A stretch of 49,628 nt of DNA from Desulfobacterium sp. (lineage in GTDB: Bacteria; Desulfobacterota; Desulfobacteria; Desulfobacterales; Desulfobacteraceae). The stretch lies in assembly GCA_016342325.1 (NCBI GenBank), contig JAEINR010000044.1:1-49628 (forward strand), in the 5' to 3' direction. Made by a program: the position numbers and the translations under genes. Below the pieces are notes generated by a model that made no database searches, was not told the origin of the DNA, and was given only the letters and a program-made list of their open reading frames with translations. Shown in pieces: positions 26,974 through 48,187 of the stretch (within the stretch, counting starts at the first letter, position 1; each line of letters starts with the position of its first letter).

Positions 26974-27897
26974 TTAAACGATGCAGACCGTTCGGGTGTG
27001 GGCGGCTTGGATCACCTTTTTACTCACCCGACCCAGGAAGAAATCCCTGACCCTGGAGACCCCATAGCGGCCCAGGACAATGGTGGAATAGTCTTCCTCG
27101 TCGGCGATCCTTGCGATGGTGCCAGCCCTGGAACCGGCCCCTGTGATCACCTTATGATGAATATTATCATGCTTGTAGCCCCCTTGGATGAGCTGGCTCC
27201 TGGCATCCTCAAACACCTTGAGCATGGCAGTTCGGCCCACACCTTCGGCTCCATAATAGTCATCGGAAAAGATCTCGTCCTCCCGGACAACATGGATAAG
27301 GGTCACGGAAAAATCGGTCGTCCCGGTGGTCTTTGCGACAAACGCCACGGCCGCCATGGCCGATTCGGAGTTGTCCATGGCGATGAGGATCTTATGGGAT
27401 ACGGGTTCGGCCCCCACAAAAAACAAGGGCACAAAATCAAGGGACGTCATGAGCTTGTCCGCCACAGAGCCCACCAGGATACCGGGCACCTTGGTGAACC
27501 CCCGCCGCCTTGCCACCACTGCGGCATAGCCGTTCTTTGCCTCGGCAATGATATCCCGGGTCACCCCTTTTTCCAGGTTCCGGATACGGATCTCAATGTC
27601 ACCCTCCTGAAACCCGGAGGTCCTGAGTAATGCAACACTCTTCTCCATGAACCGGTCAATGGTCTCCCGGTTCTGCTGCTCCCAGGAGGCCATATGCACG
27701 GCCCGGCCGTTCATCATGGGGGTGTTGGTGAGATCCCAGTAGTATTCCGGGATCTTGTGAAACACGTTGAACAGGACCACCTTCATATTACTGAAAGGCG
27801 AAAACCCAGCGATATAACGAATGGTTTTCAACGATCGTTCAGAGCCGTCCACGGGAACCAATATTTTCTCTTGTTTGTCAGCTTTATGCGCCATCAT
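26974..27897 (-). CDS. Tandem universal stress protein (two UspA domains)
   Basis: The 307-aa protein contains two Usp domains, each opening with the strand motif (ILVPVDGSERS near residue 14 and KILIAMDNSESA near 170). The second ends in GRYGVSRVRDFFLGRVS, the ATP-binding G-x2-G-x9-G-R/S pattern. The first domain's equivalent (ARRRGFTKVPGILVGSVA) is looser, so nucleotide binding may rest on the second half. It lies 10 bases downstream of the PatZ-like gene on the minus strand and should be cotranscribed. Usp proteins respond to starvation, redox or metabolic stress. Confidence 0.88.
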   Translation of the reverse strand: MMAHKADKQEKILVPVDGSERSLKTIRYIAGFSPFSNMKVVLFNVFHKIPEYYWDLTNTPMMNGRAVHMASWEQQNRETIDRFMEKSVALLRTSGFQEGDIEIRIRNLEKGVTRDIIAEAKNGYAAVVARRRGFTKVPGILVGSVADKLMTSLDFVPLFFVGAEPVSHKILIAMDNSESAMAAVAFVAKTTGTTDFSVTLIHVVREDEIFSDDYYGAEGVGRTAMLKVFEDARSQLIQGGYKHDNIHHKVITGAGSRAGTIARIADEEDYSTIVLGRYGVSRVRDFFLGRVSKKVIQAAHTRTVCIV

Positions 27898-27907
27898 AAT
27901 TCCTCCC

Positions 27908-30586
27908 TTAATTTAAGGTTGAAAGATCTATCTTCAATTCATACTCCGAGGAGCCAGAAACCCTTGCCGCCTCAAACCCGAGTTTCTTCCCAAGTTTCAG
28001 CATCTGGCGGTTCTCCGCAATCACAAGCCCCCACACGGTCCCAAGACCCTTTTGCTTTGAAAGCCGGAGGCACCGCTTTAACAGCGATGCGCCAATGCCC
28101 CTGCCCTGCCACTGGTCGGCCACGGCAACGGCAAACTCACCGTTTTTTCCGTTGGCTTCCCTGATCACCCTGGCAACCCCGGCCATCTTCCGGCCGGAAG
28201 GGGTATCCACCAGGGCGATCAAGGCCACCTCCCGGTCATAGTCCACCTGGGTCAGCCGGATAAGCATCCACTTGGAAAGCTGCTTCATGGGAAAGAAAAA
28301 GCGCTGGTAGACGCTCTTTGGCGACAGGGCGTTGAAATGCTCGATCATGAGACCCGCATCCTCCGGCCGGATGGGCCGGATATAAATGCGCTCATTGTCC
28401 ACGGTAACATCCTCTGCCTCCTGATCCCAGGGATAGGAGGAGATCACAAGATGCCCGGGCGCAACCTTGGCTGAAGGTTTCACCACCACCCGGGCATCCA
28501 CGGCAACAAGCGCGCCCCGGCTCACAAGCACCGGATTGATGTCAAGGGCGTCGATCTCCGGAAAATCCGTGACCAGCCGGCCGAGGCGGATCAGGATCTC
28601 CTCCACCAGTTCACGGTCCACGGCCGGGATGTTCCGGAACCCGTCAAGCACCCTTGAGATCCGGGTGCCGTTGATGAGGGTGCTTGCCAGGGGACGGTTC
28701 AAGGGCGGCAGCCCCATGGCCGTATCCCTGAACACCTCTGTCATCACCCCGCCCATGCCAAAGAGCACCACGGGTCCGAAGGCATCGTCCTGCTTTGCCC
28801 CCATGATGAGCTCGTAGTCGGCACCGGAATTCATGGACTGGACCGTCACGCCGAGGATATGGGCGGTGGGATCGTAGTTCCGGGCGGACGCCATAATCAG
28901 CTCAAAGGCCTGCCTTACCCTGGTTTCGTCCCCAAGGTTCAGCTGCACCCCACCGGAATCGGATTTGTGGAGGATATCCCGGGAGCAGATCTTCAATGCC
29001 ACGGGAAACCCCATGTTCCGGGCAAGGGCCACGGCCTCTTCCCTGGTTTCGGCAAGGTCACACCGGTTCACGGGAATGCCGTAGGCCCGCAGCAGATCCT
29101 TTGCCTCCACCTCGGTAAGTCCCTTGTCCGGTTCAGCCAACCCCATCTGGATGATCTCCCTGGCCCTGGCCCGGTCGATCAACAGCCTTTTGTCCCTGCG
29201 GATGGGAATCTCGTGGAGCATCTCGATGTTCTTTCCGTACTGGTAGAGGTTCATGAACGCCCGCACCCCTCGTTCCGGGGTGTCGTAGGTGATCACCCCT
29301 GCCTGGTTGAAGATCTTCCTGGCCTTGTCAATGTGGGTGCCGCCGATCCATGCCGTAAACACGGGACAGGTGCCGGTCTTTAAAAACGCTGCCAGGGGTT
29401 TTGCAAGGGCTGACGGGTCATACATCCCCACCGGCGAACAGATCAGGAGAAGGCCGTCGGTCTCCGGGGCCTCCATGCAGATCCTGGCGGCATTGATATA
29501 GGTTTCCGGGGAGGCATCCCCAAGAATATCCACGGGATTCTGACGGCTCCAGCTGGAAGGCAGCAGGGCATCGAGCCTGGAAATGGTCTCGTCACTCAAA
29601 AGGGCCGGCTCCGCGCCTTGGGCCCCAAGGGCATCCGCCGCCATCACGCCCGGCCCCCCGGAATTGGTCACGATGGCAAGCCTTGCCCCCTTGGGACGCT
29701 GCTGCTTTGCCAGGAACTCGGTACAGTCGAACAGCTCCTGGAAATCATCGACCCGGAGGATACCGGCCCGCTTAAAGGCGGCATCATAAATGGCGTCGTC
29801 CCCTGCCATGGCGCCGGTGTGGGAGGCGGCCGCCCTGGCACCGGCCTCGGACCTGCCCGACTTAAGCGCGATAATGGGCTTGATCCGGGACACGCCCCGG
29901 GCCGCACTCATGAAGTTTCTGATGTTGGTGAGGCTCTCCACGTACATCACAATGCTCTCAACCTCCTTGACCGTGCCAAGGTAATCGATCATGTCGGCAA
30001 AATCCACATCCGCCATGGAGCCCAGGCTCACAAAATGGCTGAAGCCAACCTTCTCCCGCATGGCAAGATCAAGAACAGAGGTGCACACGGCACCACTCTG
30101 GGAGAGAAATGCAATCTTACCCGGCAGGGGAAGCTGGGGAGCAAAGCTTGCATTGAGACCGTTGGCGGTGTTGACCATGCCAAGGCAGTTCGGACCGACG
30201 ATCCTGATCCCGGTCCGGCCGGCAGCCGCCATGATGGAAGCCTCGATCTTTGCTCCCTTGGCTCCCGTCTCCTTGCCCCCGGCCGAGATGACCACACACC
30301 CTGCAACCCCCGCGTTTCCGCAGCTTGCAACCGTGTCGGGCACCGTTGCCATGGGCGTTGCGATAACGGCAAGATCCACCGCCTGTTTGATCGCTCCGAC
30401 ATGGGGATATGCTTTAAGTCCCATGATTGTATCATGCTTCATATTCACCGGGTAGACCTTTCCCTGGTATCCCTTACCCACAAGGTTTTCCATGACGGAT
30501 TCTCCGACACTGCCCCCTCGCTCGCTGGCCCCGATCACGGCCACGGATGCCGGGTTGAACATCCGGTCCAAATTGAGTGTGCCCAT
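27908..30586 (-). CDS. PatZ-like ADP-forming acyl-CoA synthetase fused to GNAT acetyltransferase
   Basis: The 892-aa protein has the order of enterobacterial Pat/YfiQ lysine acetyltransferase: CoA-binding domain (VAVIGASERGGSVGES, residues 15-30), ligase-CoA domains, an ATP-grasp domain (from ~480, with FPVALKICSRDILHKSDSGG), then a C-terminal GNAT domain (~720-890) with the acetyl-CoA loop QGRGIGASLL. His256 in ASHTGAMAG sits where ADP-forming acetyl-CoA synthetases carry their phosphohistidine; I recall that this His is missing in Salmonella Pat. The protein may therefore keep synthetase activity as well as acetylating proteins. It leads an operon with the UspA gene; a candidate sigma-54 promoter lies upstream. 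Confidence 0.85.
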   Translation of the reverse strand: MGTLNLDRMFNPASVAVIGASERGGSVGESVMENLVGKGYQGKVYPVNMKHDTIMGLKAYPHVGAIKQAVDLAVIATPMATVPDTVASCGNAGVAGCVVISAGGKETGAKGAKIEASIMAAAGRTGIRIVGPNCLGMVNTANGLNASFAPQLPLPGKIAFLSQSGAVCTSVLDLAMREKVGFSHFVSLGSMADVDFADMIDYLGTVKEVESIVMYVESLTNIRNFMSAARGVSRIKPIIALKSGRSEAGARAAASHTGAMAGDDAIYDAAFKRAGILRVDDFQELFDCTEFLAKQQRPKGARLAIVTNSGGPGVMAADALGAQGAEPALLSDETISRLDALLPSSWSRQNPVDILGDASPETYINAARICMEAPETDGLLLICSPVGMYDPSALAKPLAAFLKTGTCPVFTAWIGGTHIDKARKIFNQAGVITYDTPERGVRAFMNLYQYGKNIEMLHEIPIRRDKRLLIDRARAREIIQMGLAEPDKGLTEVEAKDLLRAYGIPVNRCDLAETREEAVALARNMGFPVALKICSRDILHKSDSGGVQLNLGDETRVRQAFELIMASARNYDPTAHILGVTVQSMNSGADYELIMGAKQDDAFGPVVLFGMGGVMTEVFRDTAMGLPPLNRPLASTLINGTRISRVLDGFRNIPAVDRELVEEILIRLGRLVTDFPEIDALDINPVLVSRGALVAVDARVVVKPSAKVAPGHLVISSYPWDQEAEDVTVDNERIYIRPIRPEDAGLMIEHFNALSPKSVYQRFFFPMKQLSKWMLIRLTQVDYDREVALIALVDTPSGRKMAGVARVIREANGKNGEFAVAVADQWQGRGIGASLLKRCLRLSKQKGLGTVWGLVIAENRQMLKLGKKLGFEAARVSGSSEYELKIDLSTLN

Positions 30587-30872: not shown

Positions 30873-32252
30873 ATGGATCCCTATACGATATTTATCATCG
30901 ATGATGAAGAGACCATCCGGGACAGCCTGACCCTGATTCTTGAACCGGACTACACCGTTCACACCTTTGCCACGGGCAGCGAGGCCCTGGGGCCGCTCTC
31001 GGCCACGCCTCCGGATCTCATCCTGCTTGACATCGGCCTTCCCGACATCTCCGGCATTGATCTTCTCAAAACCATCAAAACATCCCACCCGGGAATCCCC
31101 GTGATCATGATCACGGCATTTGAAGACATCGCTACCGTGATCTCGGCCATGAAATCCGGGGCCTATGACTATCTGGTAAAGCCCCTCCACGGCGACACAC
31201 TGGAACTTGTGATCGCCAACGCCCTTGAGACGGTAAAGCTGAGAAAAGAGGTCAAGCGCCTCCAGGAGCAATTCATCCAGGAGAACCTGCCCTGCTTTAT
31301 CGGAGACAGTGATATAATCCAGGACATGCTGGAGTTTGTGGAGTTGGTGGCCAAGAGCCCGGACACCCCCATCCTCATCCTGGGGGAGACCGGTACGGGA
31401 AAGGAGCTTGTGGCAAGCGCCATCCACTACCGAAGCCCCAACTTCCGAAGCAAGTTTGTGACGGTGAACTGTGCGGCCATTCCCAAAGATCTCATCGAGA
31501 GCGAAATCTTCGGCTACGAACGGGGGGCGTTTTCAGGGGCCAACCCGGCGGGCAAAAAAGGACTGATCGAAGAGGCGGCCAGCGGCACCCTGTTCCTGGA
31601 CGAAATTGGGGACCTGGGCCTTGCAGCCCAGGCAGCCCTGCTGCGATTCCTTGAGACAGGGGAATTTTACAGGATCGGGAGCACCCGGAAACACCATGTC
31701 CAGACCCGGATCGTGTCCGCCACCAACAAGAACCTCGACGAGATGATCCAAACCGATCGTTTCAGGCGGGACCTCTTTTTCAGGATCGGGGTCGTTAAAC
31801 TTGAAATTCCCTCCCTGAACGACAGGCGCTCGGACATCCTTGCTTTGGCCGCCTTTTTCCTGGACCGGTTCAACACAAAGTTTTCTAAAAATATCACCTG
31901 GTTCTCGCCTGGGGCTGAAGCGCTCCTGTCCACCCACCACTGGACCGGCAATGTCAGGGAGCTTAAGAACCTCATGGAGCGCGGGGTATTAGTGGCAAAG
32001 GGATCAAAGCTCACCCCCGGGGACATGGGATTTCCCGAACCCGCCAACAATCCGGCCAGGGCAAAGGCAAACGCCCTGTTCCCCCCCCTCTCCCCCGACG
32101 GGGTCGATCTCTCCCTTCTCCAGGAAAAGATGGAACAATTCTATATCAGCGAGGCGTTAAGACTCGCCAAGGGCAATGAAAGCCAGGCAGCAAAGCTCCT
32201 CAACATCAACCACCACACCTTTCGCTACCGCAGGAAAAAGTTCATGGATTAG
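30873..32252 (+). CDS. Sigma-54-dependent response regulator (NtrC family)
   Basis: The 459-aa protein has a receiver domain with phosphoacceptor Asp53 (LLDIGLPD) and acidic pocket DDEE. An AAA+ domain (about 140-370) carries Walker A GETGTGKE, the sigma-54 contact loop as GAFSGA (a conservative Thr-to-Ser form of GAFTGA), Walker B LFLDEIGDL and a sensor arginine region. A Fis-type HTH ends the protein (NESQAAKLLNINHHTFRYRRKK). It must activate sigma-54 promoters. The histidine kinase gene follows after 13 bases, making a cognate pair, and a sigma-54 promoter lies directly beyond that kinase. Confidence 0.93.
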   Translation: MDPYTIFIIDDEETIRDSLTLILEPDYTVHTFATGSEALGPLSATPPDLILLDIGLPDISGIDLLKTIKTSHPGIPVIMITAFEDIATVISAMKSGAYDYLVKPLHGDTLELVIANALETVKLRKEVKRLQEQFIQENLPCFIGDSDIIQDMLEFVELVAKSPDTPILILGETGTGKELVASAIHYRSPNFRSKFVTVNCAAIPKDLIESEIFGYERGAFSGANPAGKKGLIEEAASGTLFLDEIGDLGLAAQAALLRFLETGEFYRIGSTRKHHVQTRIVSATNKNLDEMIQTDRFRRDLFFRIGVVKLEIPSLNDRRSDILALAAFFLDRFNTKFSKNITWFSPGAEALLSTHHWTGNVRELKNLMERGVLVAKGSKLTPGDMGFPEPANNPARAKANALFPPLSPDGVDLSLLQEKMEQFYISEALRLAKGNESQAAKLLNINHHTFRYRRKKFMD

Positions 32253-32265
32253 AAGGAGGCCGCCC

Positions 32266-34284
32266 TTGACCACCCGTCGTGCCCGCACACCGGACTCGGT
32301 GTCTAAAACCTTTAAAGTGGTGAGCCTGCTTCTGATAAAGGAGAGCCAGCTTAAGCCCCTTCTTACCAGCGTCTGCCAGGCCCTCAAGAACGCCCGGCTC
32401 TACAAGGATGTGAGCATGGGCGTCCTTAAAACGGATGATATTGATGCCCCCCCGGAAAGTTATACAGCTTCCGGCACCGGACAAGCGCCCCTGCCGGCAA
32501 AGGAATTCTTCTCAATGAAGCCTTCCCCCGGGTGCATCCAAGCCGTGACCGAGGGGATGACTCCCCTGGTGCTGACCAGGGATTCCCATCGTTGCACCGC
32601 CTGCCCCCTGTCCAAAGGATGTCACAGGTGGGCCGCCATCCTCATGCCCCTCAGCTTCAAGGGGACGCTCCGGGCCATCCTCTTTGTCACCATCCCCACC
32701 GAGGTGGTGTCCGTGAACACCGAGGTGGAATTCCTGGCCGAGATCGGTGAAAACATCGCAGCCGCCCTCCACAGGATCAGCCGGGAGAAGCTCCATCACA
32801 AGACCGCCGCGGCCCTTATAAAAAGGAGCCTTGAGCTCAACTACTTCCACAGCTTTTCCCGGATCATCGAACAACAAGAGCTCGACCTTGAAACCATCCT
32901 CCAAAAGGCCATCGACCTGATCCCGACCTCCATGCAGCACTCCGGCCTTGCCGGAGCAGAGCTGTTCCTTGCCCCCACGGACCGGCGGTTCCGGACCCCC
33001 AACTTCAGGGAGAGCTCCCCACGGCTCAAGAACCGAATCTCAGTGGACAAGGAGGATGTGGGCGTGCTCACCGTGTGCTATCGTCCGCAACCCGACACGC
33101 TTGCCCCCCTGGAATTCCTGAAGGAGGAAAGGGATCTTGTCCGCTCCATCTCCGTGAGAATGGGCAAGGTCATCGAACGCAAACAGGGCAGGATCGCCCT
33201 GGAGGAGAGCGAACAACGGTTCCGGGATCTCACCAACAACGCGGTCACCGGCATCGCCATCCTCCAGACCAAACGAATCGTCTTCCAGAACCCCGAATAC
33301 ACGAAGATCTTCGGTTCCCTGTCCGACGCCTCCACCCTGTTCTGCGATCCCAGGATCCATACCGATGACCTGGAAAAGACCCGGCAGTTCGACCAGGCCA
33401 TTTCCCGACACAATTTCACCACCCTTTCCGTGGACTTCAGGATCTGCGCCCGCTGCCCCCGGGACAAACGCGAGACCATCAAGTCGGTATTCTGCAGGGC
33501 GGCCATGACCGAATTCCAGGGAAAACCCGCCGTACTTCTCAATGTCATGGACATGACCAAGCCAAGGGAGCTTGAGCACCTCCTGAGAATCCAGGACAAG
33601 ATGACCTCCCTTGGCCGCATTGCCGCAGGCATTGCCCATGAGATCCGAAACCCCTTGTCCGGCATCAACATCTACCTGAAATCCCTTGAGAAATACAGTG
33701 CCCCACGGGAAAACGACACCGAGAAAAAGATCATCACCAAGATGCAGAGCGCCTCGGACCGCATCGAATCGGTGATCAAAAGGGTGATCGACTTTTCCAA
33801 ACCCGGGGACCTCAAGCCCACCCTGCTGGATATCAATGTGCCGGTGCAGAACGCCATCGACCTTGCCGCCGTGACCCTTCGAAAAAGCGGAGTGTGCCTG
33901 GAAACAAGCCTTAGTGACACCCTGCCCCGGTGCAACGCCGACAGCCACATGATCGAACAGGTGATGCTCAACCTCATGACCAACGCCTCGGAAGCCATGA
34001 AAGCCCTACCCCCTGACGCCAAAGCCATTACCGTCAAAACCGAGCCCGCGGACGGGACCGAACCCACGGACGGGGCGGCGGTCACCATCCGGGTGGAGGA
34101 TTCCGGCCCCGGGATTTCCGAGTTCCACAGGGAGCGGATCTTCGACCCCTTTTACACCACCAAGAACAGCTCCGGCATCGGCCTCAGCATCTGCCGGCGC
34201 ATCATCAACGACCACAAGGGAACATTAGAGGTCTACCAGAGCCGACTCGGGGGGGCAGGGTTCGTGATCCACATCCCGGTTTGA
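32266..34284 (+). CDS. Cytoplasmic sensor histidine kinase with cysteine motifs
   Basis: I choose the TTG at 32266 (672 aa) because AAGGAGG stands just ahead of it and the upstream frame overlaps the previous gene. There are no membrane helices. A GAF-like N-terminal region (about 15-175) contains HRCTACPLSKGCHRW, i.e. C-x2-C-x5-C. A second helical/GAF-like part follows, then a PAS domain (about 315-430) with CARCPRDKR and a nearby Cys. HisKA has the phosphoacceptor His458 (AHEIRNPL), and the HATPase domain has NLMTNASEA, DSGPGIS and GIGLSI. The paired Cys motifs could hold zinc or an Fe-S cluster, implying a redox or gas signal, which is inference. It is the expected partner of the upstream regulator. 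Confidence 0.9.
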   Translation: MTTRRARTPDSVSKTFKVVSLLLIKESQLKPLLTSVCQALKNARLYKDVSMGVLKTDDIDAPPESYTASGTGQAPLPAKEFFSMKPSPGCIQAVTEGMTPLVLTRDSHRCTACPLSKGCHRWAAILMPLSFKGTLRAILFVTIPTEVVSVNTEVEFLAEIGENIAAALHRISREKLHHKTAAALIKRSLELNYFHSFSRIIEQQELDLETILQKAIDLIPTSMQHSGLAGAELFLAPTDRRFRTPNFRESSPRLKNRISVDKEDVGVLTVCYRPQPDTLAPLEFLKEERDLVRSISVRMGKVIERKQGRIALEESEQRFRDLTNNAVTGIAILQTKRIVFQNPEYTKIFGSLSDASTLFCDPRIHTDDLEKTRQFDQAISRHNFTTLSVDFRICARCPRDKRETIKSVFCRAAMTEFQGKPAVLLNVMDMTKPRELEHLLRIQDKMTSLGRIAAGIAHEIRNPLSGINIYLKSLEKYSAPRENDTEKKIITKMQSASDRIESVIKRVIDFSKPGDLKPTLLDINVPVQNAIDLAAVTLRKSGVCLETSLSDTLPRCNADSHMIEQVMLNLMTNASEAMKALPPDAKAITVKTEPADGTEPTDGAAVTIRVEDSGPGISEFHRERIFDPFYTTKNSSGIGLSICRRIINDHKGTLEVYQSRLGGAGFVIHIPV

Positions 34285-34422: not shown

Positions 34423-34438
34423 TGGCATGCAAATTGCG
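34423..34438 (+). promoter_or_regulatory. Sigma-54 promoter for the HK–TauE–phosphohistidine operon
   Basis: TGGCAT-GCAAA-TTGCG carries the essential GG (34424-34425) and GC (34436-34437) with exactly 10 bases between them. It lies about 49 bases before the first gene of the operon and directly downstream of the gene pair for a sigma-54 activator and its kinase. Confidence 0.75.
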
Positions 34439-34486
34439 AAACAAGATTTCCGTAAACAACATTGAAACAAAGGAAACTTGACAGCC

Positions 34487-36259
34487 ATGGGAAAAACCCT
34501 ATTTGGAAAAAGAAAAAATACGCCAACCCATGCCACGGTGAACCCGGGCATTTCAGATAATCTACTGAAGACGAGAAACTACTTCAACCAGCTCAAGTTC
34601 CGCCTTGGCATCGGGGTTCTGGCCTGCTTCATCATTCCCCATGCATTGCTCTCCGCCTACTTCCATTTCCAGTTCACCGCTGCATTGAAAAAAACGGGCA
34701 AGCTCAACATCCAGGCATTGGCAAAGAGCCAGAGAAACACGGTGGACCTCTTCCTGCGGGAGCGGGAAATCAACCTTCGAAACCTCTTCTACACCCGGGA
34801 TTTCACCCCGGCCCCCCGGGAAGACAAGATGCTCTTCTATCTCCAGAACTTAAACCACCACAGCGACGCCTTTGTGGATGTGGGATTCCTCAACGGCCAG
34901 GGGATCCAGACCGGCTATGCCGGACCGTTTCCCAACCTCCTTGGTAAGAACTACAAAGACGAAGCGTGGTTCACCACCCTGGTTGCCCAGGAAAAGGATT
35001 ACGTGATCACCGACATCTATCTTGGCTTCAGGAACAAGCCCCACTTCACCATTGCCGTAAAGCAGACCATCAACGGCACGCTCTGCATCATGCGCGCCAC
35101 CATAGATCCGGACAAGTTCTACATGTTCCTGCGCTCCATCGGCAAGGGCAAGGAGGTGGAGACCACCCTGGTGAACGCCCGGGGCACCTATCAGCTGGTG
35201 GATCCTCTAAAGGCAAACCTTTTGGAAACCTCCCGGTACCTCCCCCCATTGGATATGAGTGCCGGCATCTACGAAGTACATGATAAAAACGGCACCATGC
35301 TCACGGCCCATGCCTGGCTCTCCGAGACCCCCTGGGCGCTTATCATCAGCCAGCCCCTCAATATCATCCATGCCCAGATGTACAAAACCCGGAACATGAT
35401 GATGGTCAACCTTGCCATCATCACCCTGTTTCTAGCCCTGGTGATCTGGATAACGGTCAGCCGCCTCATGAACCGGGCCCAACGCATCGCTGAACAGAGC
35501 CACCAGCTCCAAACCCAGCTGATCCACGCCTCAAAACTCGCCTCGGTGGGCGAGCTTGCCACCGGGGTCGCCCACGAGATCAACAACCCCCTTGCCATCA
35601 TCACCTCCACCACCGGGGTGGTTCGGGACATGCTCAACCCGGAATTCGATCTGGACCCACGACCCGAAGCGATCCTGGGGGAGCTTGACACCATCGAGTC
35701 CGCCGCCTTCAGGGCCAGCGGCATCACCCGCCAGCTCCTGGACTTTGGCCGGAAAAACGTGCCCCGGAAGGGCCGCCACGACATCAACGAGATTATTGAG
35801 GGCGTGATCATCGGGGTAAAGAAGCACCGCTTCAACCTTGCCGACATCGCGCTTGTGAAACACTACGCCCCCCATCTTCCCAAAATCCGGGTCGATGCCG
35901 ACCAGATCTCCCAGGTGTTCCTCAACCTTCTCAACAATGCCGAGGATGCCATCTTGGGAAGCGGCACCATCACCATCACCACAGGCCGTGACAAGGACCG
36001 GGTGATCACCATGATCCAGGACACGGGAGACGGCATGCCTCCAGACCAGCTCAAGGAAATCTTCACCCCCTTTTACACCACCAAGGAGGCGGGCAAGGGA
36101 ACAGGCCTGGGGCTCAGCATCTCCCTCGGCATCATCAACTCCATGGGCGGCACCATCGAGGTCCAGAGCCTGCCCGGCAGGGGCAGCCTCTTCACCATAT
36201 CCCTTCCGGCCGACACCCCGGACACCAACGACAACAATGATAAGGGAGGCAAAGGATGA
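34487..36259 (+). CDS. Membrane sensor histidine kinase with Cache domain
   Basis: From ATG 34487 the protein is 590 aa; a TTG at 34478 in frame is closer to the AAAGGA site and cannot be excluded. A TM helix at about residues 38-60 and another at about 305-325 bracket a periplasmic dCache-type domain. HisKA with phosphoacceptor His363 (VAHEINNPL) and an HATPase domain (NLLNNAEDA, DTGDGMP, GTGLGLSI) follow. There is no HAMP or PAS. The next gene, a lone receiver, overlaps by 4 bases, so they form a pair. As first gene behind the sigma-54 promoter it senses an extracellular ligand for the operon. Confidence 0.92.
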   Translation: MGKTLFGKRKNTPTHATVNPGISDNLLKTRNYFNQLKFRLGIGVLACFIIPHALLSAYFHFQFTAALKKTGKLNIQALAKSQRNTVDLFLREREINLRNLFYTRDFTPAPREDKMLFYLQNLNHHSDAFVDVGFLNGQGIQTGYAGPFPNLLGKNYKDEAWFTTLVAQEKDYVITDIYLGFRNKPHFTIAVKQTINGTLCIMRATIDPDKFYMFLRSIGKGKEVETTLVNARGTYQLVDPLKANLLETSRYLPPLDMSAGIYEVHDKNGTMLTAHAWLSETPWALIISQPLNIIHAQMYKTRNMMMVNLAIITLFLALVIWITVSRLMNRAQRIAEQSHQLQTQLIHASKLASVGELATGVAHEINNPLAIITSTTGVVRDMLNPEFDLDPRPEAILGELDTIESAAFRASGITRQLLDFGRKNVPRKGRHDINEIIEGVIIGVKKHRFNLADIALVKHYAPHLPKIRVDADQISQVFLNLLNNAEDAILGSGTITITTGRDKDRVITMIQDTGDGMPPDQLKEIFTPFYTTKEAGKGTGLGLSISLGIINSMGGTIEVQSLPGRGSLFTISLPADTPDTNDNNDKGGKG

Positions 36260-36666
36260 AGGTCCTGCTGGTGGACGACGAAGAACAGTTCCGAACAGCC
36301 GTTGCAAAGCAGCTTTCTGTCAGGGGCCACACGGTCCATGGGGCCGGCACAGGAGAAGCAGGGCTTGCCATGGCCAAAGCGATTTCCCCGGATGTGGTCC
36401 TCCTTGACATGCGCCTGCCCGGGATGAACGGCACCGCCACTTTAAAAGAGATGAAAAGGGTATCTCCCCTGACAGAGATAATCATGCTTACCGGACACGC
36501 CACGGTCAAGGCTGCCATGGAAGCGATCAACATGGGGGCTTTTGACTATATGACGAAACCCATGGGAATCAATGAGTTGATCTACAAGATGGAGGACGCC
36601 TATAAGAAAAAACGACTCGCCAAACAACAGATAAAGGTAGCCACAACACCCGTAAATAACCGATAA
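36256..36666 (+). CDS. Stand-alone receiver domain protein
   Basis: The 136-aa product is a CheY-like receiver with acidic residues DDEE near position 7, phosphoacceptor Asp51 (LLDMRLPG), conserved Thr in MLTGHA and Lys in MTKP. A basic tail of about 20 residues follows, with no DNA-binding or catalytic domain. It probably takes phosphate from the kinase it overlaps and acts by protein contact, possibly on the permease or phosphohistidine protein encoded downstream. It is similar in pattern to the receiver at 41274. Confidence 0.9.
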   Translation: MKVLLVDDEEQFRTAVAKQLSVRGHTVHGAGTGEAGLAMAKAISPDVVLLDMRLPGMNGTATLKEMKRVSPLTEIIMLTGHATVKAAMEAINMGAFDYMTKPMGINELIYKMEDAYKKKRLAKQQIKVATTPVNNR

Positions 36667-36680
36667 AAGGAGTAACAACA

Positions 36681-37955
36681 ATGAACTTTTTTAAACAATG
36701 GGGCCGGTTCATGATCCAGGGATCACGGCACTATGCCCAGTGGGAAATCAACAACGCAAACACCATCCTCAACAGCAGAAAACGGGTCGCGATCCTGGGA
36801 CTGCTCCTGATACCGGCCATCATCGGCGGGGTTGTGTTTGCCGACGACATCGGCACGGCCATGCCCGACCTCATCGGCGGCCACCACGCCTACAGCCCCT
36901 CCTATTACAGCCTGGGCATTTTTGTGGTCTCCATTTTTGTGGGACTGCTTGCAGGGCTCATCACCGGCTGCATCGGCGCTGGCGGCGGCTTCATCATCGC
37001 CCCGGCCCTGATGAGCGCCGGCATCAAGGGTATCCTTGCCGTGGGTACCGACCTGTTCCACATTTTTGCCAAGGCGATCATGGGCAGCGTCATCCATCGG
37101 AAGCTCGGCAACGTGAGCGTTCCCCTGGCCTTTGTCTTTGTGATCGGGGCCCTGTTGGGGGCCACGGGGGGGGGACTGTTGAACCGCTACCTCTACGAAC
37201 TCAACCCGGTGTTGAGCGACGCCTTTATCAGCAGCGTCTATGTGTTCATGCTGGGTTTCCTCGGCATCTACGCCCTCACCGATTTCCTGCACTCGATAAA
37301 TCCGGGCAAGGCATCAAGCGACAGCGGCAGCGACGCCCTGGGAAGCCTTCCCAGGAAACTCCAGGCCGTGACCCTGCCTCCCATGGTCAAGTTCGACTTT
37401 GACATCACCCCGGGCGGCAGAAGCATCTCCTGGCTCTTCCTGGTGCTGTCGGGCGGACTTGTGGGCCTTGCCGCAGGCATCATGGGGGTGGGCGGCGGCT
37501 TCCTCACCTTCCCCATCTTTGTCTATGTCATGGGCGTCTCCTCCATGACCACGGTGGGCACCGACATCTTCCAGATCATCTTCACGGCGGGCTATGCCTC
37601 CATCACCCAGTATGCCATCTACGGGTTCATCTTCTACACCCTGGCCATCGGCATGCTCCTCGGCTCCCTTGTGGGCATTCAGGTCGGCGCCATGGTGACC
37701 AAGGTGGTCAACGACACCACCATCAGGGGGTTCTACGCCATCGCCATCCTCTCGGGCTTTGTAAACCGACTCTTTGCCCTGCCGGTAAAGCTTGCCGACA
37801 TGGAGATCATCTCCCTTTCCCATAAAACAGGGATGATCCTCAACACCATCGGCACCTGGGCCTTCTTCCTGGTGATCGGATTCTTCGGGGTCTGGGTATT
37901 TTCAGTCTTTTTCATGAACATCAAAACCCTCAGGGGTGAGGAGGTGCGCCCATGA
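36681..37955 (+). CDS. TauE/SafE family anion permease
   Basis: The 424-aa integral membrane protein has two homologous halves. Each carries a glycine-rich signature (GCIGAGGGFIIAP near residue 95, GIMGVGGGFLTFP near residue 265) followed by GTDLFHIF or GTDIFQII. That is the internal duplication of the TauE/SafE (DUF81) family, members of which move sulfite, sulfoacetate or related organosulfur anions. A soluble loop of ~50 residues separates the halves. The exact substrate, and the direction of movement, are not visible; sulfate or sulfite is plausible in a sulfate reducer. AAAGGAG precedes the start, and the next gene overlaps by 4 bases. Confidence 0.88.
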   Translation: MNFFKQWGRFMIQGSRHYAQWEINNANTILNSRKRVAILGLLLIPAIIGGVVFADDIGTAMPDLIGGHHAYSPSYYSLGIFVVSIFVGLLAGLITGCIGAGGGFIIAPALMSAGIKGILAVGTDLFHIFAKAIMGSVIHRKLGNVSVPLAFVFVIGALLGATGGGLLNRYLYELNPVLSDAFISSVYVFMLGFLGIYALTDFLHSINPGKASSDSGSDALGSLPRKLQAVTLPPMVKFDFDITPGGRSISWLFLVLSGGLVGLAAGIMGVGGGFLTFPIFVYVMGVSSMTTVGTDIFQIIFTAGYASITQYAIYGFIFYTLAIGMLLGSLVGIQVGAMVTKVVNDTTIRGFYAIAILSGFVNRLFALPVKLADMEIISLSHKTGMILNTIGTWAFFLVIGFFGVWVFSVFFMNIKTLRGEEVRP

Positions 37956-38638
37956 TCGCAAAAAAGAAAGAATTCTACACGGGCGCGTTCATGCTGCTGG
38001 CATTTGCAGCCGTTCTTGTATTTATCTTCTCCCCCATCTACCATGGCAAAAACGGCCTCTGCTTCCTGGACAACATGTTCAACGCCATGTCCAAGGGATC
38101 GGCCTACTACATTCCCGTGGTAAAGACCGAGGCGGCCCGGCTTAACGGCAAGACCGTGGCACTCACCCTTAAGATGGACACGGTCGCCCTGGTAAAAACC
38201 GCAAGCCTGGTGCTGGGCCAGGCCAATGCCCGGGTCACCCCCTCGGGAAAGTCCCTCATGGTTACGGCGGACCTGGGCCAGGTCCTGGACGCCTGTTTAA
38301 AGGATGCGGATGCCATGTACCACAACAATGGCACAGCCATCCGGCAGAAGTACCAGACCGACGAACGGATGATCCTGTTCAACTGGTATCAATTGCTGAA
38401 AAACATGGAAAAGGGGCTGACAAAACAGAAGCTGTTCAAGGAAGCCAAGATCGTTGCCCAGGTGAACCACAAGGCCGTGGAGACTGCCTACAACTACTAC
38501 AAGGTCGAGGCGAAATCGGTCAAGGCCAGCGCCGCCATGCTCGGGTTTGCCCTGGCGTTCTATGTCCTCTACACCCTTTGGTACGGATTCGGCATCATGT
38601 TCGTGTTCGAAGGCCTTGGCATGCAGATAGAACACTAA
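37952..38638 (+). CDS. Two-TM membrane protein of unknown function
   Basis: The 228-aa protein has helices at about residues 10-30 and 195-220 with about 160 residues between them, probably on the periplasmic side. The loop is helical (KQKLFKEAKIVAQVNHKAVE) and has no recognised motif. It overlaps the permease by 4 bases and precedes the phosphohistidine protein by 18 bases. Tight coupling suggests a subunit or partner of the permease. No family recognised. Confidence 0.75.
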   Translation: MIAKKKEFYTGAFMLLAFAAVLVFIFSPIYHGKNGLCFLDNMFNAMSKGSAYYIPVVKTEAARLNGKTVALTLKMDTVALVKTASLVLGQANARVTPSGKSLMVTADLGQVLDACLKDADAMYHNNGTAIRQKYQTDERMILFNWYQLLKNMEKGLTKQKLFKEAKIVAQVNHKAVETAYNYYKVEAKSVKASAAMLGFALAFYVLYTLWYGFGIMFVFEGLGMQIEH

Positions 38639-38656
38639 AGATAAAGGCAGCTTGAA

Positions 38657-41281
38657 ATGATGAACCTGATACCGAAAACACTGGCCCGGCTTTTTAACAA
38701 AGGCCCGAAACCCGACCCATCCAATGCAGAGGAGCTGCGCCTAAATTTCAAATCCAGGTACCATCATTTCAAGCTGCTCCTGAACGCCAACAACCGCTGC
38801 CTGGAGGAGATGGCCGAAATGGAGCAGGCCCTCAAGGGAGACAAAACCTTTGGCATGAGCTTTGTCAGAACCTGCTGCACGGCCATATCCGTGAACGTTC
38901 TCACCATGATCAACAACATGGAGCACCTGTCCCCTGGCAAATACCCGGACCTTGGCCCCCGGTTCGACGCCATCCGCCGGGAGCTTGACCGCCTGCTCCA
39001 CCCCAAAGCCCGGGTCCAGGAGGAAAGACTCGTCATCCCCTTTGACAAGATCAACCAGGAGATGGCCAATGTGGTGGGGGGCAAGATGGCAAAACTTGGG
39101 GAGATCAAAAACCAGCTGGAGATCAACGTGCCCCAGGGCTTTGTCATCACAGCCACAGCCTATGAACGCTTTATCCACCTCAACGACCTCCAGGACGAAA
39201 TCGACACCATCACCCAGGCCTCCGGGGCCGATGATCTCAAAAAGCTCGACATCATCAGCGCCCAGATCCAGCAGAAGATCATCACCGCATCCATGCTGGA
39301 CGGGCTTGAAACCGCAGTAAACGAAAACTGGAACCTGCTTGAACAGAACGTCAACCGCCCCCTACAGCTTGCCATCCGCAGCAGCGCCCTTTGCGAGGAC
39401 AGCCTGGATAGCTCGTTTGCCGGTCAGTACCGAAGCGAGCTCAACGTGGACCAGGAAAACTTTGCCCAGGTTTACAAGGAGGTGGTGGCCAGCAAGTACA
39501 GTGTCCAGGCCATGACCTACCGCCTCAACAAGGGCTTCAGGGACGAGGATATCGCCATGTGCATCGGATGCATGGAGATGATCGATGCCGTGGCAGGCGG
39601 GGTGATTTACACCCGCAATCCTGTGAACGCCGACGACGACTCGGTCTTCATCAACTCAGCCTGGGGCCTTCCAAAGCTTGTGGTGGACGGCAGCGACGCC
39701 TTTGACCTCCTGGCAGTCTCCCGGAACCAGCCCTTTACGATCACACAAAGGGACATCGGCGAAAAAACCATCCGCTACCGCTGCTCCCAGGGCGACGGTA
39801 TCGAGAAAGTGCCGGTGCCGGAGGCCCATCGCACAACCCCCTCCATAGACGACCCCACCGCCCTTACGCTTGCCCGGATCTCCCTGGCCATAGAAGAGTA
39901 CTACACCATCCCCCAGGACATCGAATGGGCCCTTTCCCTGGAGGGCAGACTCTACATCCTCCAGTGCCGTCCCCTGCAGCAAAAGAAGAGAACCATGCCT
40001 GCCCCGGATCTCCCCGGCCTGGCCCCCCCCCTGCTCTCAGGGGGCATCACGGCAAGTCCGGGAACCGCCACGGGTCCTGTCTACCGGGCGATCCGGGATG
40101 CGGACATCCTCTGGTTCCCGGAGAATGCCATCCTCCTGGTGGACCAGGCAAGGCCCAGGTGGGCCCCGCTACTCAACAGGGCCGCGGGCATCATCTCCGA
40201 ACACGGCGGGTTTGCCGGCCACCTTGCCAATGTGGCAAGGGAGTTCTCGGTGCCCGCCATCATGAATATCCAGGGCGCCCTGGAAACCCTTGAACCGGGC
40301 GATGTCATCACCATGGATGCGGACACCTGCTCGGTTTATAAAGGGGAACAGCCCGCCATCCTGGCCAAGGAACAACCTCCCCGGCCCAGCCCCATGAAAC
40401 AGAGCACCGTGTTCAAGCTCCTGGAACAGGCCTGTGATCTGATCGTGCCCCTGAACCTCATGGATCCCGACGCCACCGAGTTCCGGCCGGGTGCCTGCAA
40501 AACCTTCCACGACATCACCCGGTTCATCCACGAGCGGTCGGTCCACGCGATGTTCAACTTCGGCACCAACAACAACTTCCCGGAACATTCCAGCAAGCAG
40601 CTCCACTACCATGTGCCCCTGAACTGGTGGATCCTCAACCTGGACGACGGGTTCAGCGCCACAGTGACCGGCCCCTATGTCCGCCTCAACACCATCGCAT
40701 CCCACCCCATGCTCGCCTTTTGGGAGGGGTTCATCCTCGTTCCCTGGGACGGCCCCCCGCCAGTGGACGGCCGGGGACTGATGTCGGTGATGTTCCGATC
40801 CACCATGAACCCCTCCCTGGTGCCCGGTGTCCGGTCCAAGTACGCGGACAAGAACTACTTCATGATCTCCAGGCACTACTGCAGCCTCAACTCCCGGCTG
40901 GGCTACCACTTTTCCACCATGGAAGCCCTGGTGAGCGGCCGGGCCTCGGAAGACTACATCAACTTCCAGTTCAAGGGAGGGGCCGCAGACTACGACCGCA
41001 GGATCAAACGGGTCCTTTTCATCAAGGAGATCCTGGAAACCTACGATTTCACGGTCACGGTCAGGGAAGACACCCTCACGGCCCGCATGGAAGGCCAGGG
41101 AACCGAGGTACTCAAAACCCGCCTCATGATACTCGGCTACTTAAGCCTCCACACCCGGCAGATCGACATGATCATGTCCAACAGCCGCCGTGTGCGCTTT
41201 TACAGGGAAAAGATTGGCAACGATATTGACGAAAGAATCATAAAACCACACTTCAACAAAGAGGAGGAACACCATGGATAA
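38657..41281 (+). CDS. ATP-grasp plus phosphohistidine-domain protein (PEP synthase-like, lacking PEP-binding barrel)
   Basis: The 874-aa protein has a helical N-terminal segment of ~130 residues. A PPDK/PEP-synthase N-terminal ATP-binding domain follows (VGGKMAKLGEI at ~140, LAIRSSALCEDS at ~240, ending at LQCRPLQ ~445). Then comes a swivelling phosphohistidine domain (~465-560) with His522 in EHGGFAGHLANVAREFSVPA. The usual C-terminal PEP/pyruvate TIM barrel is missing; instead ~300 residues with conserved-looking text (FRPGACKTFHDITRFIHE, LHYHVPLNWW) follow. It should therefore autophosphorylate from ATP and pass phosphate to something other than pyruvate. Flanking receivers make a signalling role attractive. 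The domain calls are firm, the acceptor unknown. Confidence 0.8.
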   Translation: MMNLIPKTLARLFNKGPKPDPSNAEELRLNFKSRYHHFKLLLNANNRCLEEMAEMEQALKGDKTFGMSFVRTCCTAISVNVLTMINNMEHLSPGKYPDLGPRFDAIRRELDRLLHPKARVQEERLVIPFDKINQEMANVVGGKMAKLGEIKNQLEINVPQGFVITATAYERFIHLNDLQDEIDTITQASGADDLKKLDIISAQIQQKIITASMLDGLETAVNENWNLLEQNVNRPLQLAIRSSALCEDSLDSSFAGQYRSELNVDQENFAQVYKEVVASKYSVQAMTYRLNKGFRDEDIAMCIGCMEMIDAVAGGVIYTRNPVNADDDSVFINSAWGLPKLVVDGSDAFDLLAVSRNQPFTITQRDIGEKTIRYRCSQGDGIEKVPVPEAHRTTPSIDDPTALTLARISLAIEEYYTIPQDIEWALSLEGRLYILQCRPLQQKKRTMPAPDLPGLAPPLLSGGITASPGTATGPVYRAIRDADILWFPENAILLVDQARPRWAPLLNRAAGIISEHGGFAGHLANVAREFSVPAIMNIQGALETLEPGDVITMDADTCSVYKGEQPAILAKEQPPRPSPMKQSTVFKLLEQACDLIVPLNLMDPDATEFRPGACKTFHDITRFIHERSVHAMFNFGTNNNFPEHSSKQLHYHVPLNWWILNLDDGFSATVTGPYVRLNTIASHPMLAFWEGFILVPWDGPPPVDGRGLMSVMFRSTMNPSLVPGVRSKYADKNYFMISRHYCSLNSRLGYHFSTMEALVSGRASEDYINFQFKGGAADYDRRIKRVLFIKEILETYDFTVTVREDTLTARMEGQGTEVLKTRLMILGYLSLHTRQIDMIMSNSRRVRFYREKIGNDIDERIIKPHFNKEEEHHG

Positions 41282-41708
41282 AATGAATATCAATCTGTTA
41301 GTCGTTGATGACGAAGAGGAGTTTCTGGTGTCGATCACCAAGAGCCTGTCTGTCAGGAACTTCAAGGTCACTGGGGTGAACCGGGGAGAAAAGGCCATCG
41401 AGGCCGTGAAAGCCCATGCCGTTGACATCGCCCTGGTGGACCTCAAGATGCCCGGCATCAACGGAGAAGAAACCCTTGCCGCCCTCAAAGCTGCCCAGGA
41501 AGGCCTTGAAGTCGTGATCCTCACCGGCCACGGCACCATCGACTCGGCCATCGAATGCACCCGAATCGGCGCCTTTGCCTTTCTCCAGAAACCCTGCGAG
41601 CTGAACGAACTGTTGGACACCCTGAACAGGGCCTATGAAAAGAAACAGAAAAACATCGAAGAGATCAACGAACGCCGGATCAAGGGCATCCTCAAAGCAA
41701 AGGTCTAG
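41274..41708 (+). CDS. Stand-alone receiver domain protein
   Basis: The 144-aa CheY-like protein overlaps the preceding gene by 8 bases and has its own GAGGAGG site. Key residues are DDEEE, the acceptor Asp in LVDLKMPG (about residue 56), Thr in ILTGHG and Lys in LQKP. A charged helical tail of ~25 residues ends it. Translational coupling to the phosphohistidine protein suggests they act together. Confidence 0.9.
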   Translation: MDKMNINLLVVDDEEEFLVSITKSLSVRNFKVTGVNRGEKAIEAVKAHAVDIALVDLKMPGINGEETLAALKAAQEGLEVVILTGHGTIDSAIECTRIGAFAFLQKPCELNELLDTLNRAYEKKQKNIEEINERRIKGILKAKV

Positions 41709-41736
41709 GATTTTATCATCCTCGCCCCAACCGCGT

Positions 41737-41763
41737 CCCCGGCTCCTTGCCCAGGAGCCGGGG
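41737..41763 (+). terminator. GC-rich hairpin between receivers
   Basis: A perfect 10-bp stem (CCCCGGCTCC / GGAGCCGGGG, loop of 7) lies 28 bases after the stop. No U-tract follows. It may partly terminate or process the transcript before the last receiver gene. Confidence 0.5.
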
Positions 41764-41801
41764 AGATCCGGAAAGAAACACGACCACCAGGGACAGCCAC
41801 G

Positions 41802-42200
41802 ATGAATGTATTCAAGAGACTCAGGCAGCTAAAAACCCTCCTCGTTGACGACGACGAATGGATCAGGGACGCCATGTCCATCTTTTTTAAGAGCGAAGGG
41901 TGCGCGATTCAAACCCTTGAAACCGCAGAAGAGGCGTTGCCGTTTTTTGCAAAGGTTCGCTACGACATCGTGCTCATCGATTACATGCTGCCGGGAATGA
42001 ACGGCATCTGCTTTGCCAAAGCCCTGGAGCGCCTCCAGGCGGACCAACCCAAGTGCCAAAGCCCCATCATCAAGATCCTCATCACGGCCCACGGGGAAGC
42101 GGAGATCATCACCCAGGCCAAAGCGACCGGGTTCCATGACATCATCCACAAGCCCTTTACCCCGGAAGACATCGAAATCGCCCTTGGCAAAGTCCTATAA
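41802..42200 (+). CDS. Stand-alone receiver domain protein
   Basis: The 132-aa receiver has DDDE near residue 17, phosphoacceptor Asp in LIDYMLPG (about 60), a Thr in LITAHG and Lys in IHKPF. Compared with the other receivers it has an N-terminal extension of ~10 residues and an insertion around residues 80-90 (LQADQPKCQSP). It has no output domain. A hairpin separates it from the operon, so it may be expressed at a different level. Confidence 0.88.
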   Translation: MNVFKRLRQLKTLLVDDDEWIRDAMSIFFKSEGCAIQTLETAEEALPFFAKVRYDIVLIDYMLPGMNGICFAKALERLQADQPKCQSPIIKILITAHGEAEIITQAKATGFHDIIHKPFTPEDIEIALGKVL

Positions 42201-44036: not shown

Positions 44037-44957
44037 ATGAACGATATTGAAAGAATACGTCATTTTAACCGATTCTATACACAAATCCTTGGTTTACTGG
44101 ACAATAAACTTCTAAAAAGCGACTATTCATTGGCTGAAGCGCGTATTTTATTCGAGCTTGGTCAGAGCCCCAATCTTGTGGCAAGGGATTTGGCAAAACA
44201 GCTCCATCTTGATCCGGCACAGCTAAGCCGTCTTTTGAGGCGTTTTGAGCAACAGGAATTGATTCGCAAAGAAAAATCCTCAGATGATACCCGCAAACAG
44301 GTTCTTTCCCTCACATCCCATGGAAAATCGGCACTTAGCAAACTCCAGGACATGTCAAATGAGCAGATCAGGGCATCACTTGCCGATACCACCCAAGAGG
44401 AACAGCGTCGACTGGTAAAGGCGATGAACGCGATTGAACAAATCTTCACCGGGGAAACACCCCCATCCAAGATGTTCACGCTTCGATCCCATCGTCCGGG
44501 GGATATTGGATATATAACGTATCGCCATGCCATGTTTTATTCCCGGACCTATGGGTTTGATGTTACGTTTGATGCCTATGTGGCGTCAGGCATGGCAGCG
44601 TTTGTAATGCAGTATGACCCTCAAAAAGAACATCTCTGGGTCGCTGAGACGGATACAGCCCTTGTGGGGTCGATTGCCATTGTGAAAGCAGATGAGGATA
44701 CGGCGCAACTGCGATGGTTCCTGGTGGAATCCCAGGCCAGAGGAAGAGGTCTTGGAAAGAAACTGCTCCATGAAGCGGTTTCTTTCTGTAAACGCCAAAA
44801 TTATCAAAAAATCATTCTGTGGACAGTGAGCAACCTGGAAGCGGCCCGCCGGCTCTATGATCAATCGGGTTTTCAGGTCACAACCACCAACACCCACGAA
44901 ATTTGGGGGAAAGAACTCACCGAAGAACTCTGGGAATTAGAGCTAAGCTTAGCTTAG
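44037..44957 (+). CDS. MarR-type regulator fused to GNAT acetyltransferase
   Basis: The 306-aa protein joins a winged-helix MarR domain (residues 1-~145; LAKQLHLDPAQLSRLLRRF recognition helix, SDDTRKQVLSLT wing) to a GNAT domain (about 150-300) with the acetyl-CoA loop QARGRGLGKKLL and NLEAARRLYDQSGF. MarR–GNAT fusions occur widely and are thought to couple transcription to small-molecule acetylation; the ligand is unknown. A good GGAGAAA site precedes the start. The inverted repeat just upstream suggests autoregulation. It converges on the deaminase gene, with stops 8 bases apart. Confidence 0.9.
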   Translation: MNDIERIRHFNRFYTQILGLLDNKLLKSDYSLAEARILFELGQSPNLVARDLAKQLHLDPAQLSRLLRRFEQQELIRKEKSSDDTRKQVLSLTSHGKSALSKLQDMSNEQIRASLADTTQEEQRRLVKAMNAIEQIFTGETPPSKMFTLRSHRPGDIGYITYRHAMFYSRTYGFDVTFDAYVASGMAAFVMQYDPQKEHLWVAETDTALVGSIAIVKADEDTAQLRWFLVESQARGRGLGKKLLHEAVSFCKRQNYQKIILWTVSNLEAARRLYDQSGFQVTTTNTHEIWGKELTEELWELELSLA

Positions 44958-47224: not shown

Positions 47225-48187
47225 TTGAAAGAGTTAACGGATATTGAATATTTAAACCGGGTGGCCCGGGGGTATGGCCTTGAACTGTGCCGTCTCCATG
47301 GGGATGCAGGTATAACCGGAAGCCCGGAGCGCAGCCTGAACCGAACCGTGGCGGAAAACACCCCAGGCGAAAAATACATTATTGAAGAGTTGGCCCCGGA
47401 CAAATCCAAACAAAAGCAACGCCTTGGGGAGCACCAGCACGCCTTGAAAGATCTGACGATTCCCCATGTGCATCCCCCCCTGAAGAACCGTGAAGGAAGT
47501 GTATTGACGGAACGTGACGGGCGGTTTTTCCAGATCACCCCCTATGTTCCCGGCGTGACACTGCCCCGGCCTGAATATGTGATGGATGCCTGGCGGGGTG
47601 AGGCCATGGCGGATTTTCTAATTTCCCTTTACAGAAAGACCCGTGGAACAAAAATGGTCCGCCAGGAAGAAAAAGACGGCCGTTTTTTTTCAATAGCGGA
47701 TTATGTACAAAAAATAGTAAGGGACATTGATCGGAAAAACCCCGAAATTGCAAGCCGGGTCCGCCAGATAACGGCCAGCCTGGAGGACCGGTTTATGGCA
47801 GTGCATGACAATGTGCCCCGGATATTTTGCCATGGGGATTTTCATGTGATGAATGTAATCTGGGGAACGTCAGGCATTTCCGGCGTCATCGACTGGGAGT
47901 TCTGCGGTCTTCGTCCGGATGTGTATGATGTGGCCAACATGATCGGCTGCATCGGGATTGAGGATCCCAATGCCCTGGGCGGCCCCCTGGTTACCCGTTT
48001 TCTTGAAAAGCTCACCCAAAGCGGCTTGATTTCCAAGAGGGGTTGGGAGACCCTGGCTGAATTCATCATCGCCCTGCGGTTTGCCTGGCTTGCCGAATGG
48101 CTTCGGAACAATGACCGGGAGATGATCGAACTGGAGCTGGTTTACATGAAGCTCCTTGCAGACAACCAGGCAACCCTGTTCAGATAA
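47225..48187 (+). CDS. Aminoglycoside phosphotransferase (APH)-family kinase
   Basis: The 320-aa product begins at a TTG with AAGGA about five bases before it. The kinase core is clear: HGDFHVMNVIW (catalytic Asp and Asn, about 208-218) and GVIDWEF (metal-binding Asp, about 225). The N-lobe lysine region is EKYIIEELAP with ITPYVPGVTLP. The C-terminal part is helical. APH-family kinases phosphorylate small molecules such as choline, homoserine or methylthioribose, and some proteins. The substrate here cannot be told. It probably shares a transcript with the helicase gene. Confidence 0.8.
   Translation: MKELTDIEYLNRVARGYGLELCRLHGDAGITGSPERSLNRTVAENTPGEKYIIEELAPDKSKQKQRLGEHQHALKDLTIPHVHPPLKNREGSVLTERDGRFFQITPYVPGVTLPRPEYVMDAWRGEAMADFLISLYRKTRGTKMVRQEEKDGRFFSIADYVQKIVRDIDRKNPEIASRVRQITASLEDRFMAVHDNVPRIFCHGDFHVMNVIWGTSGISGVIDWEFCGLRPDVYDVANMIGCIGIEDPNALGGPLVTRFLEKLTQSGLISKRGWETLAEFIIALRFAWLAEWLRNNDREMIELELVYMKLLADNQATLFR

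Follow-up and report, generated by a model that had tools for sequence, protein, structure and literature searches.

A seven-gene cluster of Desulfobacterium with a TauE permease, lone receivers and a PEP-synthase-like protein of altered C-terminal domain

Results

Gene content of the locus

The window analysed here is a 49,628-nucleotide stretch of Desulfobacterium sp. DNA (contig JAEINR010000044.1, assembly GCA_016342325.1). An initial annotation made from the sequence had described seven closely packed genes behind a sigma-54 promoter, with receivers around a large PPDK-like gene, one of them joined to it by translational overlap. Gene calls and overlaps agree with this layout, in a run from 34487 to 42200. 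The features of the run and of the two genes directly upstream are:

30873..32252, + strand: NtrC-type sigma-54 activator, upstream of the run (Pfam)
32176..34284, + strand: second histidine kinase, upstream of the run (Pfam)
34423..34437, + strand: sigma-54-like promoter element TGGCATG-N4-TTGC, TGGCATGCAAATTGC, the sole mismatch-free match in the window
34487..36259, + strand: histidine kinase (HK) with a dCache sensor domain (Pfam dCache_1, HisKA, HATPase_c)
36256..36666, + strand: lone receiver RR1 (Pfam Response_reg; Asp pair, Asp51 and Lys101 intact)
36681..37955, + strand: TauE/SafE permease (PF01925, 126.4 bits against a cut-off of 32.6)
37952..38638, + strand: two-TM protein with a middle part of ~150 residues (hydropathy, conservation in 33 homologues)
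38657..41281, + strand: PPDK-like protein of 874 residues (Pfam, models, alignment with PEP synthase, residue conservation)
41274..41708, + strand: lone receiver RR2 (Pfam Response_reg; phosphorylation residues intact)
41736..41764, + strand: 12-pair hairpin in the gap between RR2 and RR3 (z -2.5; 2/200 shuffles as stable)
41802..42200, + strand: lone receiver RR3 (Pfam Response_reg; phosphorylation residues intact)

Within the run, HK and RR1 overlap by 4 bases, as do the TauE and two-TM genes, and the PPDK-like gene overlaps RR2 by 8 bases. The HK start at 34487 is an ATG picked by eye, and a TTG at 34478 is possible. Whether RR3 is cotranscribed with the genes before it is less certain, because a gap of 93 bases with a strong G+C-rich hairpin separates it from RR2. 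The hairpin has no T run and could serve as an attenuator or for processing. The two-TM protein has no Pfam match; its middle part is probably periplasmic, judging from the positive N-terminus.

The mismatch-free match to the sigma-54-like element compares with ~0.04 expected from base composition. With one mismatch allowed there is no excess, with 3 matches in the window against 2.27 expected from shuffles. A sigma-54 promoter is thus plausible at this run, and the NtrC-type activator upstream is its possible driver. The second upstream kinase is likely the partner of that activator; its start is uncertain because its open reading frame overlaps the preceding gene. At the homologous loci described below, a looser form of the element precedes 10/125 operons (boundaries set by script, the window's own operon being merged with upstream genes and so not scored as site-bearing) against 49/1546 gene starts overall, and a sigma-54 promoter is therefore not a general trait of these loci.

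Domain architecture of the PPDK-like protein

The PPDK-like protein consists of N-terminal helices (residues ~1-120), a PPDK_N ATP-grasp (138-448; PF01326, 297.5 bits), a PEP-utilizers mobile (swivelling) domain with His522 (487-557; PF00391) and a C-terminal domain (CTD; ~578-866). Both the ATP-grasp and the swivelling His522 domain had been proposed in the initial annotation, together with the replacement of the PEP/pyruvate barrel by an unnamed domain, and all three stand. Residues 575-874 have no Pfam match at E 0.1, the PEP/pyruvate barrel included, and the CTD (~290 residues) has no NCBIfam match either. The annotation had also suggested predicting the structure of this domain. The resulting model, from 109 sequences, has a mean pLDDT of 91.4, its predicted elements are not in barrel order, and no PEP-binding barrel is detected; the whole-protein model has a mean pLDDT of 84.8. 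The CTD lacks a good match among PDB chains, and none of the matches of its model to the PDB is confident.

Residues 124-563 align with Neisseria PEP synthase in a stretch that includes His522, whose position we take to be that of the catalytic-His motif. His522, on whose conservation the annotation had made its proposal depend, is kept in 143/145 full-length homologues, and each of seven ATP-grasp residues checked is kept in 142 to 145 of the 145. Within the CTD, residues D619, H625, H751, G774, G775, R785 and D837 are invariant (145/145), while H618, R622 and D805 are kept in 144/145. The invariant residues could equally be the active site of an enzyme.

The protein shares with PEP synthase and PPDK the ATP-grasp, the swivelling domain and the catalytic-His region. 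It differs from them in its extra N-terminal helices, in its CTD where no barrel is detected, and in scoring far under the cut-offs of the PEP-synthase models of NCBIfam (TIGR01418, 304.8 bits against 739.75; PRK06464, 327.8 against 598). Rifampin phosphotransferase (RPH; Listeria 5hv1-5hv3, 5fbs) is the second-best match to the whole-protein model and follows the same ATP-grasp/His logic with a replaced acceptor domain, which appears different from that of the window protein. The score of the PPDK-like protein against the RPH model NF041857 is 196.2 bits, with a cut-off of 999. The domain order of RPH also differs from that of the window protein, and phenylphosphate synthase provides a further case of acceptor-domain exchange in the PEP-synthase superfamily.

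Distribution and gene neighbourhoods

The CTD profile finds a match at E 1e-20 in 107/297 sampled genomes of the phylum, and three matches altogether in the genome of the window. A cassette-free CTD protein (see below) as query gives 140/395 at 1e-40. A full-length query matches in 101/149 genomes of family f68 at 1e-60, a tally that might in principle include a true PEP synthase.

We collected CTD genes from 101 stretches chosen among high-scoring hits, with loci L006 and L007 and the window among them; this is a non-random sample. Locus L005 was omitted as identical to L037, and neither L143 (a 100-base stub) nor L144 entered the counts. Gene calling relied on a simple ORF script, with which spurious ORFs occur. 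The 128 CTD ORFs found, none of them fused to a receiver, a kinase or a permease, reduce to 125 genes once overlapping ORFs are removed. As controls we use 21 genes (13 for ATP-grasp + His proteins, 8 for ATP-grasp-only proteins) from 20 stretches where no CTD was found.

The linkage of CTD genes with receivers and TauE exceeds chance. Within six genes to either side, a lone receiver is found for 91/125 CTD genes against 1/21 controls, any receiver or NtrC protein for 107/125 against 1/21, an HK for 86/125 against 1/21, TauE for 71/125 against 0/21, and the two-TM protein for 38/125 against 0/21; p values of these comparisons are naive because the sample is non-random and relatives are not independent. 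Receivers without a DNA-binding output are the commonest neighbours, and TauE is the commonest non-signalling one. Among 87 aligned lone receivers at most three genes from a CTD gene, the three of the window included, Asp7, Asp8, Asp51 and Lys101 are kept in 87/87 and Thr79 in 83/87. TauE is not called within six genes of 54/125 CTD genes, and the CTD may thus have several clients of which permeases are one.

Conservation of the gene order, a check that the annotation had proposed, holds. TauE, two-TM and PPDK-like genes follow one another in this order, each gap being below 400 bases, at 29/124 loci in 19 lineages: 18 families and an Anaeromyxobacter MAG (L007) of the Myxococcota. A sodium:sulfate-symporter-type gene lies near 11/125 CTD genes. 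Loci L061, L115 and L119, where Pfam on representatives places such a gene near the CTD gene, perhaps present another permease client.

Neighbour types cluster on a FastTree tree of 121 proteins. The window protein falls among loci with TauE and the two-TM protein in one large group. Loci with DUF4881 or its companion gene belong mostly to the other large clade, as do all nine that have PhnD or a dual-specificity phosphatase. By Pfam, the seven window genes and their direct neighbours include neither a PtxB/PhnD-type gene nor a dual-specificity phosphatase, and DUF169 is not among the seven window genes.

Forms with an absent or degenerate ATP-grasp/His cassette

Two kinds of CTD protein described here are new: cassette-free forms, in which N-terminal helices and CTD stand together beside TauE, and forms with a degenerate cassette and an intact CTD. 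In four proteins (L007:13640-14827, of 395 aa, and one each in L193, L197 and L198) the N-terminal helices are joined straight to the CTD, and Pfam finds neither the ATP-grasp nor the His domain. Their N-terminal profile scores range from 40 to 55 bits. All four genes (4/4) are beside TauE. In L007 the overlap between the cassette-free gene and TauE is 4 bases; in L193 and L197 TauE is divergent from the cassette-free gene, with a second TauE on the opposite side in L197; and in L198 only a small gene lies between them. The cassette-free forms do not keep every CTD residue, as H618 is changed in L198 and H625 in L193. A CTD tree puts them at two points within the family, though long branches meet and a single origin is possible.

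Two full-length proteins, L086:2965-5697 and L088:2890-5637, have lost His522, K143, D248, E423 and Q436 and keep all the CTD residues checked. In L086 a paralogue three genes away is intact. Together with the four cassette-free genes beside TauE, these two degenerate forms suggest that N-terminal helices and CTD are therefore the constant unit, and that the phosphohistidine chemistry is an added control.

Beside the cassette-free protein of L193, the receiver L193:2704-3102 (Pfam) has a Glu at the phosphoacceptor Asp site, as read by eye, and the short L197 and L198 stretches show no receiver. These few cases are in keeping with receiver phosphorylation being tied to the cassette.

A sister cluster for nitrate sensitivity in Desulfovibrio

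The large clade with PhnD and phosphatase genes leads to a published gene set. We fetched 20 stretches from family f68, presumed to be the Desulfovibrio family, and called a CTD gene in 19. One of them, L191, has the order TauE, a 228-aa membrane protein, PhnD, HK, receiver, PPDK-like protein with CTD, and phosphatase; several others hold parts of this set. The L191 order is that of DVU0251-0245 in the Desulfovibrio 'nitrate cluster' (DVU0251-DVU0245 / Dde_0597-0605; Korte et al. 2014, PMC4001038). From the cluster order and the domains listed for it in that report, DVU0246 appears to carry the CTD.

Isolated D. vulgaris mutants with insertions in DVU0246 (PPDK-like), 0247 (receiver), 0250 and 0251 (TauE) show equal growth in the presence and absence of 100 mM nitrate, while nitrate sensitivity remains in a DVU0245 insertion (PMC4001038). 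For 0250 and 0248, tests in pools and on isolated mutants do not agree, and the homologues of 0245 have opposite signs in the two strains. The authors propose a leaky thiosulfate transporter and favour barred nitrate entry, citing as unpublished data mild thiosulfate defects of G20 mutants. The gene numbering and the L191 order suggest transcription from 0251 to 0245; if so, polarity on 0245 is not the cause of the 0246 effect, and the permease gene is intact. On our reading, both the PPDK-like protein and the receiver are needed for permease-dependent nitrate sensitivity.

The nitrate cluster and the window share a clustered TauE permease, HK, lone receiver and PPDK-like protein; the nitrate cluster has a membrane hypothetical protein, and the domains listed for its PPDK-like protein in the report (PMC4001038) include no PEP barrel, as in the window. 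The window differs in its two-TM protein, its three receivers, the absence of PtxB/PhnD-type, DUF169 and dual-specificity phosphatase genes from the seven, and its position in the opposite large clade. To call the window an undescribed system, as the initial annotation did, is thus too strong, since a sister set was published in 2014; what stands is that the cluster was reported there without a mechanism (PMC4001038). The annotation's link to anion transport is strengthened by the same genetics.

Interpretation

The observation behind the annotation is confirmed and its interpretation partly supported: components and linkage hold and outside genetics backs the link to anion entry, while the type is not wholly undescribed. 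We tentatively prefer, at a little short of even confidence, a permease under signal control, governed by a phosphohistidine switch that ATP would load. In this mechanism the dCache kinase would sense a ligand outside the cytoplasm and phosphorylate the lone receivers. The PPDK-like protein would carry a phosphoryl group from ATP to His522 by means of its ATP-grasp and swivelling domain, as PEP synthase does, and the loaded His522 would face the CTD in place of a PEP barrel. N-terminal helices and CTD would be the constant effector unit, working with TauE and the two-TM partner to license anion passage, and the receivers would determine when the switch is loaded or read. Phosphorylation of His522, the direction of transfer, docking on the permease and the natural substrate are inferred. 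Transfer from His522 to the receivers, to a permease partner or to a new acceptor, as the annotation had proposed, is a candidate step of this scheme. A bolder version is possible but doubtful, namely that N-terminal helices and CTD together form a permease-control unit of a new type, and that the intervening cassette is a new kind of phosphohistidine relay coupling ATP and receivers directly to the opening of anion permeases.

In the PTS, the phosphohistidine state controls transport with PEP as the donor. The window system would be alike in phosphohistidine control of transport, with ATP rather than PEP as its donor. It is not a PTS member, as HPr and EII families have no Pfam match among the seven window genes.

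The most serious competitor to the switch is a metabolic enzyme, in which the CTD binds a small molecule imported by TauE, His522 phosphorylates it, and the two-component genes merely regulate; PEP synthase with pyruvate and RPH with rifampin are the model cases. We regard it as unlikely, and still serious because the CTD, with its invariant His, Asp and Arg residues, could contain an active site. The ATP-grasp and His halves are those of PEP synthase and RPH, and acceptor-domain exchange is known in the superfamily (RPH; phenylphosphate synthase). Yet the commonest neighbours are receivers without a DNA-binding output, and the four cassette-free and two cassette-degenerate forms retain most CTD residues. 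Moreover, if the enzyme acted downstream of uptake, its loss should leave nitrate inhibition in place, yet the reported insertion abolishes it (PMC4001038).

Distinctly unlikely, in our view, is a general signalling hub in which the CTD controls TauE, sodium:sulfate-type symporters and others, the permease link of the window being one branch. The symporter-type (11/125) and universal stress protein (24/125) genes near CTD genes speak for it, as do the 54/125 without TauE within six genes, but TauE is the commonest non-signalling neighbour and stands beside all the cassette-free forms. Futile ATP use, in which nitrate mimics the natural signal and the switched-on PPDK-like protein wastes ATP, loss of any part of the chain protecting the cell and the permease having no need to carry nitrate, fits the same mutant pattern but is very improbable, as the authors favour barred nitrate entry and mention the mild, unpublished thiosulfate defects (PMC4001038).

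These results connect a published and unexplained phenotype, the sensitivity of sulfate reducers to nitrate, with a defined protein architecture, that of the 107/297 sampled genomes. Since the sister set makes cells nitrate-sensitive, the proposed phosphohistidine switch is testable, with the named residues and the natural constructs to serve such tests. If true, it would be a further phosphotransfer route to transport control, beside the PTS and classical two-component output, and would bear on nitrate control of sulfide production.

Other genes of the window

Upstream of the run, the window holds a universal stress protein gene (26974-27897), of a kind found near 24/125 CTD genes elsewhere, and an acyl-CoA-synthetase/acetyltransferase fusion (27908-30586), of a kind found near 7/125. 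Further along are a gene that fuses a MarR-type DNA-binding domain to a GNAT acetyltransferase domain (44037-44957) and an APH-family phosphotransferase-like gene (47225-48187).
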